Shown here: piece after piece, positions 8,166-44,897 of the stretch
How positions within the stretch are numbered: the stretch's first letter is position 1
Layout of the letters: each line of letters opens with the position of its first letter
From: a virus
DNA length: 55,032 nt
Strand: one strand, 5' to 3'
IMG/VR virus record: IMGVR_UViG_3300045020_000011
Span: 1 to 55,032 of that record
Position numbers and translations under genes: made by a program
The notes under the pieces: model-generated
Told to the model about the DNA's origin: nothing
The model's input: only the letters and a program-made list of their open reading frames with translations
Database searches by the model: none

Positions 8166-11100
8166 ATGGCAGCTATTGACTTCGGAAATAACAGCGGCGC
8201 TCCCGATCAAGGGGGCGCTGTTTCATCTAGTGCCCTGCTTGCGCAGGATGCACTCCTTCAAGCTAAACATCCTAGCTGGCCTACTGGTGGTACGGCTGCT
8301 CAACTCGGTCAGGAGACGAGTGGATACGACAATAGTGCTGTCTCTCCCAAGGGCGCACAAGGTATTGCCCAGGTAATGCCCGATACCCTCAAATCGATTG
8401 AGGCACAGACTGGTCGTAAGTTGGACCCAAACAATGTCAATGACCAACTGTTCATTCATCGGTACATAATGGATCAGAATTTAGCCCGGTACAATGGTGA
8501 CCCGTCGGCATCTGTCGCTGCGTACAACAGCGGTACTGATCCTAGCAAATGGAACAATCCGGAGACAAACAACTATACCCGGACTTTCGATGCGAAGACC
8601 GGAATTGATGTTGATAGTCCCTACATGATGAACGCCGCTGTTCAACCGACTACCCCCCAACAGGCCCAACCGGCACAAAATAGTCAACAACCGGCTATAG
8701 ACTTTGGCCCGACAAATAGTGCTCCCCCCTCCAACGTAGATTTTGGAGATAAACCAGTCGATAATTCCCTGTGGGAAAATCTGAAGGGCTTGGGTATGCA
8801 AGCAGCCAACATCGTTGGTGGTGGTCTGGAGTCCATTCCAATTGCTGCCCATGCAGCCTATGAAGGACTTAGGCAAGGTAGCCTTGGTGCAGTGGCTCAG
8901 ACAGGTGCCCAAGATTTCAGTAAGTACAGCCCTGAATCTGGCCTCAATGCATTGGGTGTAAATACAGACGCCTTGCACAACACGGCTGGTTATCAGCTAC
9001 CTGCTCAGGCAATGAACTTCGCATTTGATACTGTCCCTGGTGTACTCGGGGAGGGATTGGCACGTACTGGTGAACTGGAGGCTGGTATGTCTCCAAGTCA
9101 GTTCACTCCAGAAGCAGCACAGCAAGGTAAGAACATTGTCCAGGCTGGTATGATCCTCAGTCCTCTAGCTGAGATTCCGCATGCGTTTGGTGCTCTGACT
9201 CATGGTGGTCCTAGCGAAGCTGAACTGGCAGCACAGAAGTTCGCTAACCATGACAATGAGCCTACTGGTATGCCTCCGGCTACTACTCCTGGTCAGATGC
9301 CGTGGGAAATGGGTCCTCAGCCGGAAGGTGGTGGTCCCCTGCAAGGCCAGCCTAACGCTGGTCCGGAGCGTCCCCCGATTGCAATGAACAGCCAGGGTAT
9401 TGGTATTGATCCCTTGCAACCGGTGACGGCAGAAATGAACGGGGCTGAACAAGCACGTAACCGTATGGGTCCGAATGAGGGTCCGCAGTTGCCAGAAGGT
9501 GTCGACCCAATGGCAGCTAAGGTTGCGGACTTCAACACGGCTGTACAGAGTGGACACATGTTCTCTCAAGGTGATTTGTTCAACGATCTGGATCAACGTC
9601 AGGTCGATCAATATGGTACGAGACAATACGATGATGAGGAATTAAAGACCCCGCCTCGTCCTTTGAACCGTGATGAATTCGATCAGACACTAGAGAATCT
9701 AGCTAGCCAAGTAGACGATCAAGGTCGCCCTAAGACTGGCTTCGAGCTACCTGAACCTGATGACCGGGATGCAGCATATGACAAGTACCTAGAAACGGTA
9801 ACTGACAAACAAGGAGGTCTATTAGACCGTCCTACCATTGCTGACAACTTCGCTAAGGCTATCGATGAATCTATTGTAGCTGAACGTGTAGCTAACCATC
9901 CGGCAGTCAAGGCTGCACAGAATGAAGTGAATCGTCTGCAAGATCAGATTGCAGCTACCCAGGGCTTTGACAAGCAGGCTCCGCTGCAACAAGCACTTCA
10001 AACAGCTAAGGATACCCTGGCTAAAGCTACGGCTAACGTTACCAAGTTCTTCAAGGATAGCTTCCCGAAGACCCAATCAGAAGATGGTATCACGTACCTC
10101 CATGCCGGGCTGCGCCCGCCTGACTGGCTCCTGAACGGTATCGGCAATATGCTGAAAGCGTTCCACGGACTTGTATTCCGTCAAGCAGCTAAGCTGATCC
10201 GTAAGCCTACCAATCTGGATTCTTTTGCTAAGATTGTACGCTCTGGTATTGCTGATCGTATCAACCGTGAAGTTAATCGTAACTGGGAAACAGAAAAGAA
10301 CGGGAATGCGGTTGACCACATTCAGAGTGGTCCTCTGGGAAAGTTCGACGCTATTAAAGAGTGGATTCCTGATGACCGTCCGTATGAAGAGTTGAAGCAG
10401 GACTTCATGGGTGCACCTGATATGGATAGCAACATGCTAACCAAGAACATGGGTGCTCAGGGTGGTCTGTGGGCGTCAGCGATCAGCAAGAACCCGATGG
10501 TTAAGTATGCGTACACCAAGATCAACGGTGCTCAGAAGGCTATTGACCTGCAAACCAAGATGCTTCTTACCGATAAGAAGACTGGTCTGCAAGCCAAGAT
10601 GCGTGCACTGACTGCTGCTGAGAAGGGTGAGATTTATGCACACATGGACTTGAACGAAGGGAAGCGGGCTTTCACGGATGCTGAACTCCAGCGTGCTGGA
10701 TTCAATGATCGACAGATTGATTACTACCGTACTCATCAAGAAGTAATGGGTAAGATACTTGATCAAGTCAATGATGCACGGTCGAAGATTGGTCTCGATC
10801 CGATTGATCCTCGTATCGCCTATATGTCTAGCCGGTTCGTTGGTGACTTCCGTTCACTGGTATACCAGAAAGGTACGGGACACATTGTGGGTTTCATCGG
10901 TCATAACTACCGGCCCGCACTACGTGCGATCATTCGCCATATTGACGAACAGAACCCTGGTAAGTATGACTTCGAGAAGCCTACACTGAACAAGCCTGAC
11001 ATGCAGCACCCGATGAATATGTTCCAAGGGTACATGAATGCTCTGGACATGCTCAGCAAGACGGACTCTGATGTTAAAGCTATTGTGGATTCGTACAGGA

Positions 11101-41829: not shown

Positions 41830-42089
41830 TCATTGCTAGTCTGTTGATTAGGTAACGATATATCATTATGGCTTAGAACCACATATCAAATGACCATCAT
41901 ATCATCACATCTTCACTCAATTTTTAAAACAGACCTATGTTTACGATGGGGGCAGGGGGGAAAAAGCAACGCAACGAAAAGCTCGAAACCCTCTAAACTA
42001 CGATTTTATGTACTTTTAGAAGGGTAGGGGGTATAAGTATGATGATATGAGTAGAGTAACTAGATTAGTACTCTGAAGAGGAGCTCGGC

Positions 42090-42146
42090 ATGATGAAGCC
42101 ATACCTCGCAGGGCCTGTAGGCCCAGCATACAGCTATCTTCTTTAG
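42090..42146 (+). CDS. Possible 18-residue peptide frame
   Basis: AAGAGGAG precedes a double ATG at a good distance, and the frame (MMKPYLAGPVGPAYSYLL) ends at TAG 42144-42146. No rightward promoter is obvious upstream and the region is transcribed on the other strand, so this may be chance. Confidence 0.25.
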   Translation: MMKPYLAGPVGPAYSYLL

Positions 42147-42232: not shown

Positions 42233-42261
42233 ATCTTATGCTATCTTAATCACTTTGTCAA
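42233..42261 (-). promoter_or_regulatory. Sigma70-type leftward promoter
   Basis: TTGACA (42261-42256), 17 bases, TAAGAT (42238-42233) on the minus strand. The 16 bases ending in the -10 (TAAGATAGCATAAGAT) equal those of the 24758-24786 promoter. It drives the rightmost group of small leftward genes. Confidence 0.87.
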
Positions 42262-42310
42262 GTACTTTGTTGTAGTTTTGGTACAACAGAGGTAGAACAG
42301 CAAATATTAC

Positions 42311-42339
42311 TTGACAAGTCCATTAAGAGTGTATAAGAT
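42311..42339 (+). promoter_or_regulatory. Sigma70-type rightward promoter of the late arm
   Basis: TTGACA (42311-42316), 17 bases, TAAGAT (42334-42339). It is the only strong rightward promoter I see. It lies about 160 bases before the terminase start and back to back with the leftward promoter. Expected start near 42346. Confidence 0.87.
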
Positions 42340-42402
42340 AGAAGGTCTGTTGTGAAAGTTGTTGACAGTTAACATCTTTTGTGGTAGTGGTTTACCACCG
42401 TG

Positions 42403-42417
42403 AAGGAGGTGATCCAA
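42403..42417 (+). promoter_or_regulatory. Exceptionally long Shine-Dalgarno-like sequence without a start codon
   Basis: AAGGAGGTGATCCAA is the full complement of a 16S rRNA 3' end (TTGGATCACCTCCTT). No ATG, GTG or TTG follows at 5-10 bases. A perfect hairpin GTGGTA/TACCAC (42381-42398) lies before it and CCTAC/GTAGG (42423-42440) after it. The next ATG is at 42447. It could hold a ribosome or 30S subunit in the leader. Confidence 0.7.
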
Positions 42418-42446
42418 TATCTCCTACTGAGGCCGGTAGGTTACCA

Positions 42447-42506
42447 ATGGCTATCGTCGTGCTGGGAGACGTTAAACCGCCCGGCGCTAACATTTCAAGG
42501 AAATAA
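42447..42506 (+). CDS. Possible 19-residue leader peptide before terS
   Basis: ATG GCT... ends with TAA at 42504-42506, directly before the terminase ATG (42507). The frame encodes MAIVVLGDVKPPGANISRK. A weak GGTAGG lies upstream. Abutting stop and start suggest translational coupling, but the frame is short. Confidence 0.35.
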   Translation: MAIVVLGDVKPPGANISRK

Positions 42507-43145
42507 ATGCTCTCTGACAACCCCAGAATGAAGTATAAACCAACGGGTCGTAGGCGAGCAGTCACTAAGTCGAAGGGGCACTGGTCAGACAGTCAAAAAG
42601 TTGAAGCAGTTCAGACTTATCTGATCCTAGGTTCTCTGAAACTGACTGCTGGTGCCCTTCGTATCCCGTTTGATACCCTCAAGGTCTGGAAACAAAGTGA
42701 ATGGTGGAAGACTCTTGTTGAGGAACTTCGCCTTCAAGAAGACCTACAACTCAGTAACCGTCTAAAAAAGATCATCACCAAGTCATATGACGTGCTTGAA
42801 GATCGTCTCGAGAACGGTGATTTTGTCTTCGACCAGAAAACGGGCGAAATGCGACGTAAACCGGTTGCAATGCGGGACGCACACAAGGTAGCAATCGATC
42901 TTGTGCAGCAGCGCCAAGACCTTGTAGATCGCCATTTAGGGGGTCAAACGGTCACGGAAGACAAAATTGAGAAAACACTTGCAAATCTGGCTGAACAATT
43001 CGCCAAAATTGCTAACCAAGTCACAAATGTCAAGCCTTCAGTAGAGGTTACTGACGTACTCTTCGGAGCAGATGCTCATTCCGAGCGCTCTGATGAGCTT
43101 TTATTTGGCCGAGAGGACGAAAACCATGCCGAGAAAGAATCCTGA
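42507..43145 (+). CDS. terS: Terminase small subunit
   Basis: The product has 212 residues. A helix-turn-helix-like N-terminus (VEAVQTYLILGSLKLTAGALRIPFDTLKVWK) is followed by a helical oligomerisation region (LQLSNRLKKIITKSYDVLEDRL... RDAHKVAIDLVQQRQDLV). It recognises phage DNA for packaging. The start follows AAGGAAATAA. It is first in the late arm, followed by HNH and large terminase. Confidence 0.85.
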   Translation: MLSDNPRMKYKPTGRRRAVTKSKGHWSDSQKVEAVQTYLILGSLKLTAGALRIPFDTLKVWKQSEWWKTLVEELRLQEDLQLSNRLKKIITKSYDVLEDRLENGDFVFDQKTGEMRRKPVAMRDAHKVAIDLVQQRQDLVDRHLGGQTVTEDKIEKTLANLAEQFAKIANQVTNVKPSVEVTDVLFGADAHSERSDELLFGREDENHAEKES

Positions 43146-43383
43146 TGGGACTAGAGACTACAGTTACGACAAGAAATACGAATCCAGCCCTAAACAACGT
43201 GCAGCCCGAGTCGAACGTGATCTCGCTAGACGAGAACTGTCGAAAGAAGGCAAGGTTTCTAAGGGCGATGGCAAGGATGTTGACCATATCAAGCCGGTAT
43301 CTAAGGGTGGTACTAACAAGCGAACCAATCTTCGAGCTATCTCCGCAAGTGCTAATCGCGCGAAGGGAAATCGCAGCAAATGA
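43126..43383 (+). CDS. HNH endonuclease next to the terminase
   Basis: I start at the ATG 43126 (MPRKNPDGTRDYSYDKKYES), since GAGAGG lies upstream. The 85-residue basic protein has DVDHIKPVSKGGTNKRTNLRAISASANRAKG, a full HNH motif (DH, N, and N). Genes like this beside terminase often assist DNA cleavage during packaging. It overlaps both terminase genes. Confidence 0.87.
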   Translation: MPRKNPDGTRDYSYDKKYESSPKQRAARVERDLARRELSKEGKVSKGDGKDVDHIKPVSKGGTNKRTNLRAISASANRAKGNRSK

Positions 43384-44897
43384 AGATCAATGCGGAAGTG
43401 GTAGCAGGCTTTGTAGGAAGCATCCTTGCTCCGACATTTGAAGATAGCTGTGCTTCCCCCGACTTTCACAAGGAAATGTGGCAACTATGCTGCTCAACCA
43501 ACAAATTTGTTGCGATAGCTGCGCCTCGGGGTCATGCCAAGTCCACTGCGGTGACTCTTGGTTACGGTCTGGCTACGCTACTCTTCCGGGAACGGAAATT
43601 TATGTTGCTGGTATCAGATACGGAAGCGCAAGCATCACTGTTTCTGGGCAACATCAAGAATGCACTACAAGAGAACACCCAACTGATCGAACTGTTCGGC
43701 CTGAAGAAGAATGATAAGGGCCTAGTCCAGTTCGTAAAAGACAGTGAAACCGATATCGTCGTGGAATTCAATGATGGTCATCGATTCCGGATCATAGCTA
43801 AGGGTTCTGAACAGAAACTTCGTGGATTACTCTGGAATAACTCCCGTCCTGACATTATCATCGGTGACGACATGGAGAACGATGAACTGGTGATGAACAA
43901 AGAACGTCGTACCAAGTTCAAGAAGTGGTTCAAGAATGCCCTTCTTCCTTGCCGTTCTGATCATGGTATTGTCCGGATTGTTGGTACGATCCTGCACATG
44001 GATGCGATGCTTGAGAACCTCATGCCCCGTCCATATGACAAGAAGACAGTTACCGAAGACCTAAAACAGTACAGTACTCGCCGTGGTATGTGGACCTCAG
44101 TTAAGTATCGTGCCCATACAGACGATTTTAAGGCCCTTCTGTGGCCTCAGAAGAAGAGTGCTGATGAGTTCAAGATGCTTCGTGATGAAGCCTTCAGAGA
44201 CGGAACACAAGATGGATACAGTCAAGAATACCTTAACATCCCTATTGACGAATCGACCACTTATTTCAGACGGGCGGATTTCCTCCCTGTTCGAGAGGAA
44301 GACCTCAAGAAACCCGTGCGGTACTATGTTACAGCCGATCTGGCTATCAGTGACAAAGAAACGGCTGATTACTCAGTATTTGTCGTTGGTGCTGTCGATG
44401 AAGATAAGAGGATTCAAATACGGAATGTCATACGTGAACGCATGGATGGTCGAGAGATTGTTGACACCATACTTGCGCTCCAGAAGCTTTACGAACCTGA
44501 GTGTATAGGAATTGAAGAAATGCAGGTCTCCAAGGCCATTGGGCCATTCCTTCGGGAAGAAATGATCAAGCATAACAACTATATTTCCCTATACCCATTA
44601 AAGCATGGTGGTAAGGACAAGATAACCAGAGCAAGATCAATTCAAGCACGTATGCGTGCGCAAGGATGTAAATTCGACAAGTCGGGTGATTGGTATCAAC
44701 CCTTCGAGGACGAATTGATGCGGTTCCCACGTGATAAGCATGACGATCAGGTGGACGCATTTAGTTACCTTGGCCTTATGCTTGATGTAGTAGTTGAAGC
44801 TCCAACGAAAGATGAACTTGAAGATGAGGCTTACGCAGAAGAGTATCAAGCCTCTGGTCTGGCCGATAAAGGCCGTAGCGAGATAACGGGGTACTAA
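43380..44897 (+). CDS. terL: Terminase large subunit
   Basis: The product has 505 residues. The ATPase has Walker A APRGHAKST (48-56) and Walker B DIIIGDDMEN (158-167). The RNase H-like nuclease shows VTADLAISDKE and, near the C-terminus, RDKHDDQVDAF. It drives DNA into the prohead and cuts concatemers. It overlaps the HNH gene (ATGA) and its stop overlaps the portal ATG. Confidence 0.95.
   Translation: MKINAEVVAGFVGSILAPTFEDSCASPDFHKEMWQLCCSTNKFVAIAAPRGHAKSTAVTLGYGLATLLFRERKFMLLVSDTEAQASLFLGNIKNALQENTQLIELFGLKKNDKGLVQFVKDSETDIVVEFNDGHRFRIIAKGSEQKLRGLLWNNSRPDIIIGDDMENDELVMNKERRTKFKKWFKNALLPCRSDHGIVRIVGTILHMDAMLENLMPRPYDKKTVTEDLKQYSTRRGMWTSVKYRAHTDDFKALLWPQKKSADEFKMLRDEAFRDGTQDGYSQEYLNIPIDESTTYFRRADFLPVREEDLKKPVRYYVTADLAISDKETADYSVFVVGAVDEDKRIQIRNVIRERMDGREIVDTILALQKLYEPECIGIEEMQVSKAIGPFLREEMIKHNNYISLYPLKHGGKDKITRARSIQARMRAQGCKFDKSGDWYQPFEDELMRFPRDKHDDQVDAFSYLGLMLDVVVEAPTKDELEDEAYAEEYQASGLADKGRSEITGY

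Follow-up and report, generated by a model that had tools for sequence, protein, structure and literature searches.

A phage pseudoknot RNA family carrying a start-codon-free complement of the 16S rRNA 3′ tail, a candidate 30S docking site on late transcripts

Introduction

In Escherichia coli the leader of rpsO (S15) folds into a pseudoknot that is held on the platform of the 30S ribosomal subunit; the pseudoknot and the pairing of Shine-Dalgarno (SD) with anti-SD sequence together bring the folded mRNA onto the subunit, with a start codon in place and under S15 control. The STAB-SD concept is established in Bacillus, where an SD-like sequence in the leaders of cry3A and similar genes binds the 30S subunit in the absence of a start codon and stabilises the 5′ end; to our knowledge such sites are not known as a phage family. 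At the tisB standby site, 30S loading reportedly depends on a pseudoknot and takes place ∼100 nt upstream of the ribosome-binding site that is used (PMC7708055). Here we describe an element in a 55,032-nt stretch of viral DNA (IMG/VR record IMGVR_UViG_3300045020_000011, positions 1 to 55,032; hereafter the window) that has these three systems as its closest working analogues and is filed under none of them. At its 5′ end lies AAGGAGGTGATCCAA (42403–42417, + strand), an exact complement of the unpaired 3′ tail of 16S rRNA. This block is the 5′ arm of a predicted pseudoknot RNA family spread over many unrelated phages, a point missed by the initial annotation of the window.

The element shares with the rpsO leader the combination of a pseudoknot with SD/anti-SD pairing, but its fold is different, it has no start codon, and its 16S complement is much longer and often bipartite. 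Like the STAB-SD leaders it offers an SD-like sequence without a start codon; unlike it, those leaders have no known pseudoknot and a shorter complement. With tisB it has in common a pseudoknot and proposed 30S loading away from the ribosome-binding site, but, compared by description, a 16S-tail complement is not reported as the basis of loading at tisB (PMC7708055). Extended SD pairing in a Bacillota host is also seen in mRNAs of Staphylococcus aureus, where it reportedly serves initiation at a start codon (PMC13009471).

Rfam 15 scans of the window and related loci, at gathering and E-value thresholds, placed the element in no family, and no description of it was found in the open literature searched; it is apparently an undescribed structured-RNA family. 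Other structured RNAs likewise precede phage structural genes (Rfam GP20-a, RF02991; the DUF2815 RNA; further phage leader motifs), but they gave no match to the element at gathering or at E ≤ 1; a weak GP20-a match was noted downstream of the element in locus L072. The Pistol ribozyme and similar pseudoknots, considered as look-alikes, were dropped for lack of an Rfam match.

Complement of the 16S tail in the window

The initial annotation had claimed a perfect complement of the 16S 3′ end with no start codon at usable distance, and both claims hold in the window sequence. When both strands of the 55 kb were scanned for binding to the tail UUGGAUCACCUCCUUA, AAGGAGGTGATCCAA was the strongest binder at −27.2 kcal/mol, the next best site reaching −21.8; the best sites of six simulated 110-kb sequences ranged from −18.0 to −21.8 kcal/mol. 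The 13-mer AAGGAGGTGATCC has a single exact copy in the window, and the sole other site at two or fewer mismatches is at 9325. No ATG, GTG or TTG follows the block at usable SD spacing: a GTG (42409–42411) falls inside it, and the ATG at 42447 comes ∼30 nt beyond. The element thus has the 16S-tail complementarity of an ordinary SD site without its start codon 5–13 nt downstream. ARAGORN (tRNA and tmRNA) and Rfam at gathering score found nothing in the window.

The annotation had also proposed looking for the block in related phages. Relatives fetched by their terminase protein, rather than by the motif, have it at the same place, exactly in L002, L003, L005, L006 and L294 and with one change in L295. 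What is conserved among them is GGAGGTGATCC, then TATCTC, then a stem that differs in sequence from phage to phage yet still pairs; short reading frames and the GGTAACC on the opposite strand are not kept. Hairpins had been noted on both sides of the block, and both are present. The downstream one (CCTAC/GTAGG, 42423–42440) is the conserved stem P1 described below, whereas the upstream one (GTGGTA/TACCAC, 42381–42398) is unconserved, being common only to the closest relative, L002, and absent from L003, L005 and L006.

A family of pseudoknot RNAs

A first pattern, the block followed by TATCTC, matched at least 120 viral stretches, and many of these loci shared one layout, in which the block is followed by UAUCU, by a stem (P1) with C...G as its closing pair and by UUA, and in which the loop of P1 is complementary to sequence just downstream. 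Since that pattern forced GGAGG, a second scan (GGTGATCC...TATCTC...GTTA) left the upstream bases free. It matched at least 119 viral contigs, whereas the same pattern reversed matched 7, and 123 of its 134 sites scored as pseudoknots. The resulting motif of ∼50 nt reads [(UAG)AAAGG]-N0-5-GGUGAUCC-N1-4-UAUCU-P1 stem-loop-UUA, with the P1 loop predicted to pair with the sequence just downstream (P2) to form an H-type pseudoknot.

The pairing was assessed in several ways. Anchored at the conserved C, the summed P1 and P2 pairing score over 86 independent clusters was 19.4, compared with 8.4 in dinucleotide shuffles (standard deviation of the mean 0.81). A covariance model built from these loci, R1, found the element as its sole match in the window (44.4 bits, E 1.1e-10). 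In the covariance-model alignment of 91 members, P1 was paired in 98.8% of cells, and 71 structure cells had changed on both sides, against 25.7 ± 3.1 in shuffled alignments and at most 12 when the partner was slid; at the second P1 pair, 46 members have C-G and 41 have G-C. A further short hairpin, P0 (GGUG/UAUC), is nearly invariant and hence hardly testable by covariation, but exceptions that the patterns did not force keep the pairing: UACC in L199, CAUC in L171 and PAK_P5, and UGUC in L421. In the predicted fold of the window member P0 is extended to AGGAGGUG/UAUCUCCU.

GGA precedes GGUGAUCC in only about one-third to one-half of the second-scan clusters. The remainder have GGC or GGG, or have the (UAG)AAAGG block shifted by as much as 5 nt. 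With so variable a junction, the contiguous 16S complement of the window represents one variant of an arrangement in two blocks, and AGGAGGTGATCC was rejected as the conserved unit. In nearly all pattern loci no start codon was found at usable spacing. The predicted pseudoknot lies away from the start codon, as in standby or 30S-entrapment sites. In some Streptococcus phages (L161, L165, L176) a small open reading frame (ORF) takes the place of the element's 5′ half ∼60–90 nt before the terminase large subunit gene (TerL), and the P1 half, TCCCAGCGATAGGGTTATCATGCG, is retained.

Selection for pairing with 16S rRNA

Whether in one run or two blocks, the 5′ arm complements the mobile 3′ tail of 16S almost completely, and we consider it quite probable, from comparison of the members, that pairing with 16S is what is selected. 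The upstream block matched UUAGAAAGG, which is complementary to the longer 16S end found in Bacillota, over a mean run of 4.46 nt, compared with 1.54 ± 0.13 in shuffles, and in two Clostridia genomes that carry prophage elements the 16S genes themselves end in ...GGATCACCTCCTTTCTA. The upstream block was also longer where the junction was not the contiguous A (mean 5.1 versus 3.3, p = 0.004), as if total pairing were held up. The common variants GGUGAUCU and GGUGGUCC retain G-U pairing with 16S. Because Bacillota ribosome-binding sites generally resemble GAAAGGAGG for the same cause, the arm match backs 16S pairing and no single function.

Distribution and genomic setting

Each of 50 phage records searched whole had one strong copy, second matches being weak. 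Bacterial genomes had between one and a few sites, and those whose neighbours were read lay among late genes in prophage-like surroundings. The element was found in Streptococcus and Clostridia prophages (Bacillota), in Pseudomonas PAK_P1/PAK_P3-like phages and in Erwinia jumbo phages. Downstream genes encode terminase, portal, maturation protease, scaffold and capsid, or endolysin; they have SDs of their own, and their start codons lie at a median distance of 90 nt, typically 30–130 nt. The element lies at a boundary of late genes, where it either follows a late promoter, as in the window, or directly adjoins the stop codon of the preceding gene: among 79 cases with an upstream ORF, 40 had its stop within −8 to +14 nt of the element start, the stop sometimes being the UGA of GGUGAUCC.

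When a 381-nt query was compared with PAK_P3-like phages, the only matching part was a 47-nt piece containing the element. In PAK_P3 an annotated promoter lies 43 nt upstream of it, and tRNAs and TerL follow. Small RNAs are made from the same tRNA region by PAK_P3 and PAK_P4, and are abundant late in PAK_P3 (PMC4933390). These share the neighbourhood, a tRNA cluster before TerL, and the phage genera, but PAK_P4 sRNA1, annotated from RNA-Seq, stops 37 nt before the element begins, and PAK_P3 sRNA2 maps on its downstream side, between tRNAs; without overlap, they are neighbours of the element and distinct RNAs. The RNA-Seq-annotated small RNA in the Pakpunavirus tRNA cluster (L371 949–1051; NC_022986.1 91948–92050) ends shortly before the element, and its borders may merit re-mapping.

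A second, different conserved leader motif, such as GTCCTGTCGCACGACATTAAACTAGGC or GCCCTGTCATATGGCGTTAAACTGGGC, is found before these late genes too, either on its own or following the first element. It was seen ∼20–90 nt before TerL in L200, L209, L197, L171 and L168, and after the element in L042, L107, L078, L414 and L416; it is possibly related to Rfam GP20-a.

Proposed function and alternatives

The initial annotation had suggested a ribosome standby or capture site. That idea is supported by the conservation of the block in the protein-fetched relatives, the match of the arm to the Bacillota 16S tail, the lengthening of the arm and the lack of any conserved start codon or frame. From sequence, structure, conservation and context we infer 30S binding, action in cis and a benefit to late genes: the reading we favour, held at about even confidence, is that this ∼50-nt RNA family would act in cis as a docking site for 30S subunits on late transcripts. 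P0, which reuses the GGUG of the arm, would be the closed state, opened by a free or just-terminated 30S subunit. The subunit would then pair along its 3′ tail with the arm and be held next to the covarying P1/P2 pseudoknot, which occupies the usual place of a start codon, much as with folded rpsO or tisB leaders. Once docked, it could be supplied to, or retained on, the late mRNA for the downstream gene with its own SD; docking may also shield the leader, or influence the terminators found nearby in about one-third of cases. More tentatively, the element may represent a widespread and so far unnamed class of start-codon-less 30S-capture RNAs in phages of Bacillota and Proteobacteria, present once per genome and seizing subunits on late mRNAs. 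On this wider reading, such an RNA would pair in two blocks with the entire 3′ tail of 16S and would place its pseudoknot at the position of the P site. If so, bacterial viruses would have their own counterpart of termination-reinitiation or of tethering like that of an internal ribosome entry site (IRES). If docking occurs without initiation, anti-SD pairing here serves tethering and not the choice of a start codon. The question of how phages secure ribosomes for late genes is a long-standing one, and this apparently new family has a concrete, directly testable partner in the 16S 3′ tail, is compact enough to be moved into reporters, and would serve to mark the boundaries of late modules in phage genomes.

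Several observations weigh against docking in cis. Most TerL relatives at 54–67% identity are without the element. PAK_P1/PAK_P3-like phages have tRNA genes between it and the next large gene, which makes a cis effect on TerL translation doubtful there and disfavours a simple TerL translation enhancer. Other variants in the AUCC part break the 16S pairing in some members. The core GGUGAUCC is better conserved than the canonical SD part GGA, so that contact with a ligand or protein could share in its conservation. Terminator-like hairpins lie within 150 nt downstream of 30% of 104 elements, which also fits an attenuator, and upstream of 17%, frequencies far above those in shuffles (0.5% and 0.2%). 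The RNA fold, alone or with a 30S subunit bound, might decide whether RNA polymerase passes an adjoining terminator into the late module. Such attenuation or antitermination is rather unlikely in our estimate, even though in L143, L132, L080 and L051 a terminator separates the element from the following gene and scant space is left for a promoter, and P2 itself runs into a U-tract in L042, L072, L078 and L089: most members, that of the window included, have no detected terminator, the Streptococcus phages have theirs upstream, out of reach of a nascent-RNA antiterminator, and elements also precede endolysin genes, usually near the end of the late region. Antiterminators of the put/nut type sit upstream of the terminators they override, an arrangement to be compared with the downstream and upstream frequencies just given. 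The better conservation of GGUGAUCC and UAUCU than of GGA, the compact pseudoknot with conserved loops that is typical of aptamers, and the interruption of the contiguous complement in many members by a C junction or a 2–5-nt spacer could alternatively mark a riboswitch-like RNA that binds a small molecule or protein, its 16S likeness largely an incidental SD-like purine run beside an aptamer core. We think this improbable, as the upstream complement of the Bacillota 16S tail is longer in the interrupted members and the G-U pairs with 16S are preserved in the common variants.

A 5′ stabiliser of STAB-SD type, in which bound 30S and pseudoknot guard late mRNA from 5′-end-dependent decay with no role in initiation, would suit the SD without a start codon lying shortly behind a promoter in PAK_P3 and, as predicted, in the window; with the element so often intercistronic rather than at a 5′ end, and the known sites lacking a pseudoknot, we would put little weight on it. 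Still harder to credit is a small RNA acting in trans that would occupy the anti-SD of the host's ribosomes at late times of infection. The single copy per genome, whose late position varies, and the late-abundant small RNAs of the same tRNA region (PMC4933390), are compatible with it, but the annotated PAK_P4 RNA stops short of the element, most elements have no detected terminator, many lie right at a stop codon, where no intergenic space is left for a separate promoter, and phage mRNAs would be blocked as well. The initial annotation had likewise offered an anti-SD decoy on the opposite strand, which is unlikely: the promoter scan found no promoter near the element to support one, leftward promoter-like sites (42261 and 42356) lie left of it, and the late genes are on the + strand. 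The opposite strand does literally read like the end of 16S (GGTAACC, hairpin, TTGGATCACC), and the element is overlapped by open frames 19, 41 and 43 codons long, so that a chance match, an rRNA fragment or a short coding frame could be imagined; we give these next to no credence, the element being kept in relatives without the frames and occurring independently scores of times with covariation. With GGTAACC not kept in relatives, its likeness to 16S looks incidental. The suggestion of an rRNA-derived fragment fails because there is no Rfam rRNA match, conservation of 16S sequence does not extend past the 3′ tail, and the block forms part of an RNA structure that covaries and whose stems are diverse. 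A coding frame or leader peptide was rejected, as frames are unconserved and spacer lengths vary, and so was decoding in frame from the pseudoknot in the manner of an IRES, since the frame that leads into the downstream gene was open in 20 of 70 cases compared with 22 and 29 for the other two.

Surroundings of the element

Features of the window are collected in Table 1. Near-identical divergent promoters (TTGACA-17-TAAGAT on both strands, 42233–42339) part the leftward early genes from the rightward late genes, and a similar TTGACA-17-TAAGAT lies upstream of the element in L002, L003 and L005. The 19-codon frame described by the initial annotation does abut the start of the presumed small terminase gene (TerS) at 42507, but has no counterpart in relatives and is probably not part of the element proper. 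The TerS ORF had no PHROGs match at E 1e-5, its name coming from position and from the initial annotation.

Table 1. Coordinates of the element's predicted parts and of neighbouring features in the window
Feature	Position	Strand	Basis
Upstream 16S-tail block AAGG; (UAG)AAAGG in Bacillota-type elements	42403..42406	+	Sequence and pattern comparison
Junction nucleotide A, making the 16S complement contiguous; 0–5 nt of any base in other members	42407	+	
Core block GGTGATCC, complement of 16S GGAUCACC; GGUG within it is also the P0 5′ strand	42408..42415	+	
Conserved TATCT, P0 3′ strand (GGUG/UAUC)	42418..42422	+	Unforced pair-preserving variants, predicted fold
P1 5′ strand CCTAC	42423..42427	+	
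P1 loop TGAGGCCG; 42431–42435 is the P2 5′ strand	42428..42435	+	
P1 3′ strand GTAGG	42436..42440	+	
Conserved TTA linker after P1	42441..42443	+	GTTA in 31/86 clusters vs 6.3 in shuffles
P2 3′ strand TGGCT; two G-U pairs, P2 weak in the window member	42448..42452	+	
Sigma70-like late promoter TTGACA-N17-TAAGAT, ∼70 nt upstream of element	42311..42339	+	Promoter scan
Possible second, weaker promoter TTGACA-N17-TAGTGG, start near 42397	42362..42390	+	Read by eye, also in L002 and L006; unflagged by scanner
19-codon ORF MAIVVLGDVKPPGANISRK, ATG 42447 to TAA 42506	42447..42506	+	Unconserved
Small terminase-like ORF, first late gene, own SD AAGGAAATAA	42507..43145	+	Position before TerL
Terminase large subunit	43380..44897	+	PHROG phrog_38, E 2.6e-79

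A blastn search of the window DNA against phages and plasmids gave a sole, weak match, to the Alcaligenes phage vB_Af_QDWS535, which has no significant match to the element and is the only named phage with such similarity to the window's late region. In that phage (L129 3531–3872, OK172329.1) a gene for a GroES-like co-chaperonin follows a portal-like gene. On the early side of the window, GAGCTCGGCATGATGAAGCCATACCTCGCA (42081–42110, in the leftward early leader) is kept in L002 and L003, and its − strand can form a hairpin with tandem G-A pairs.
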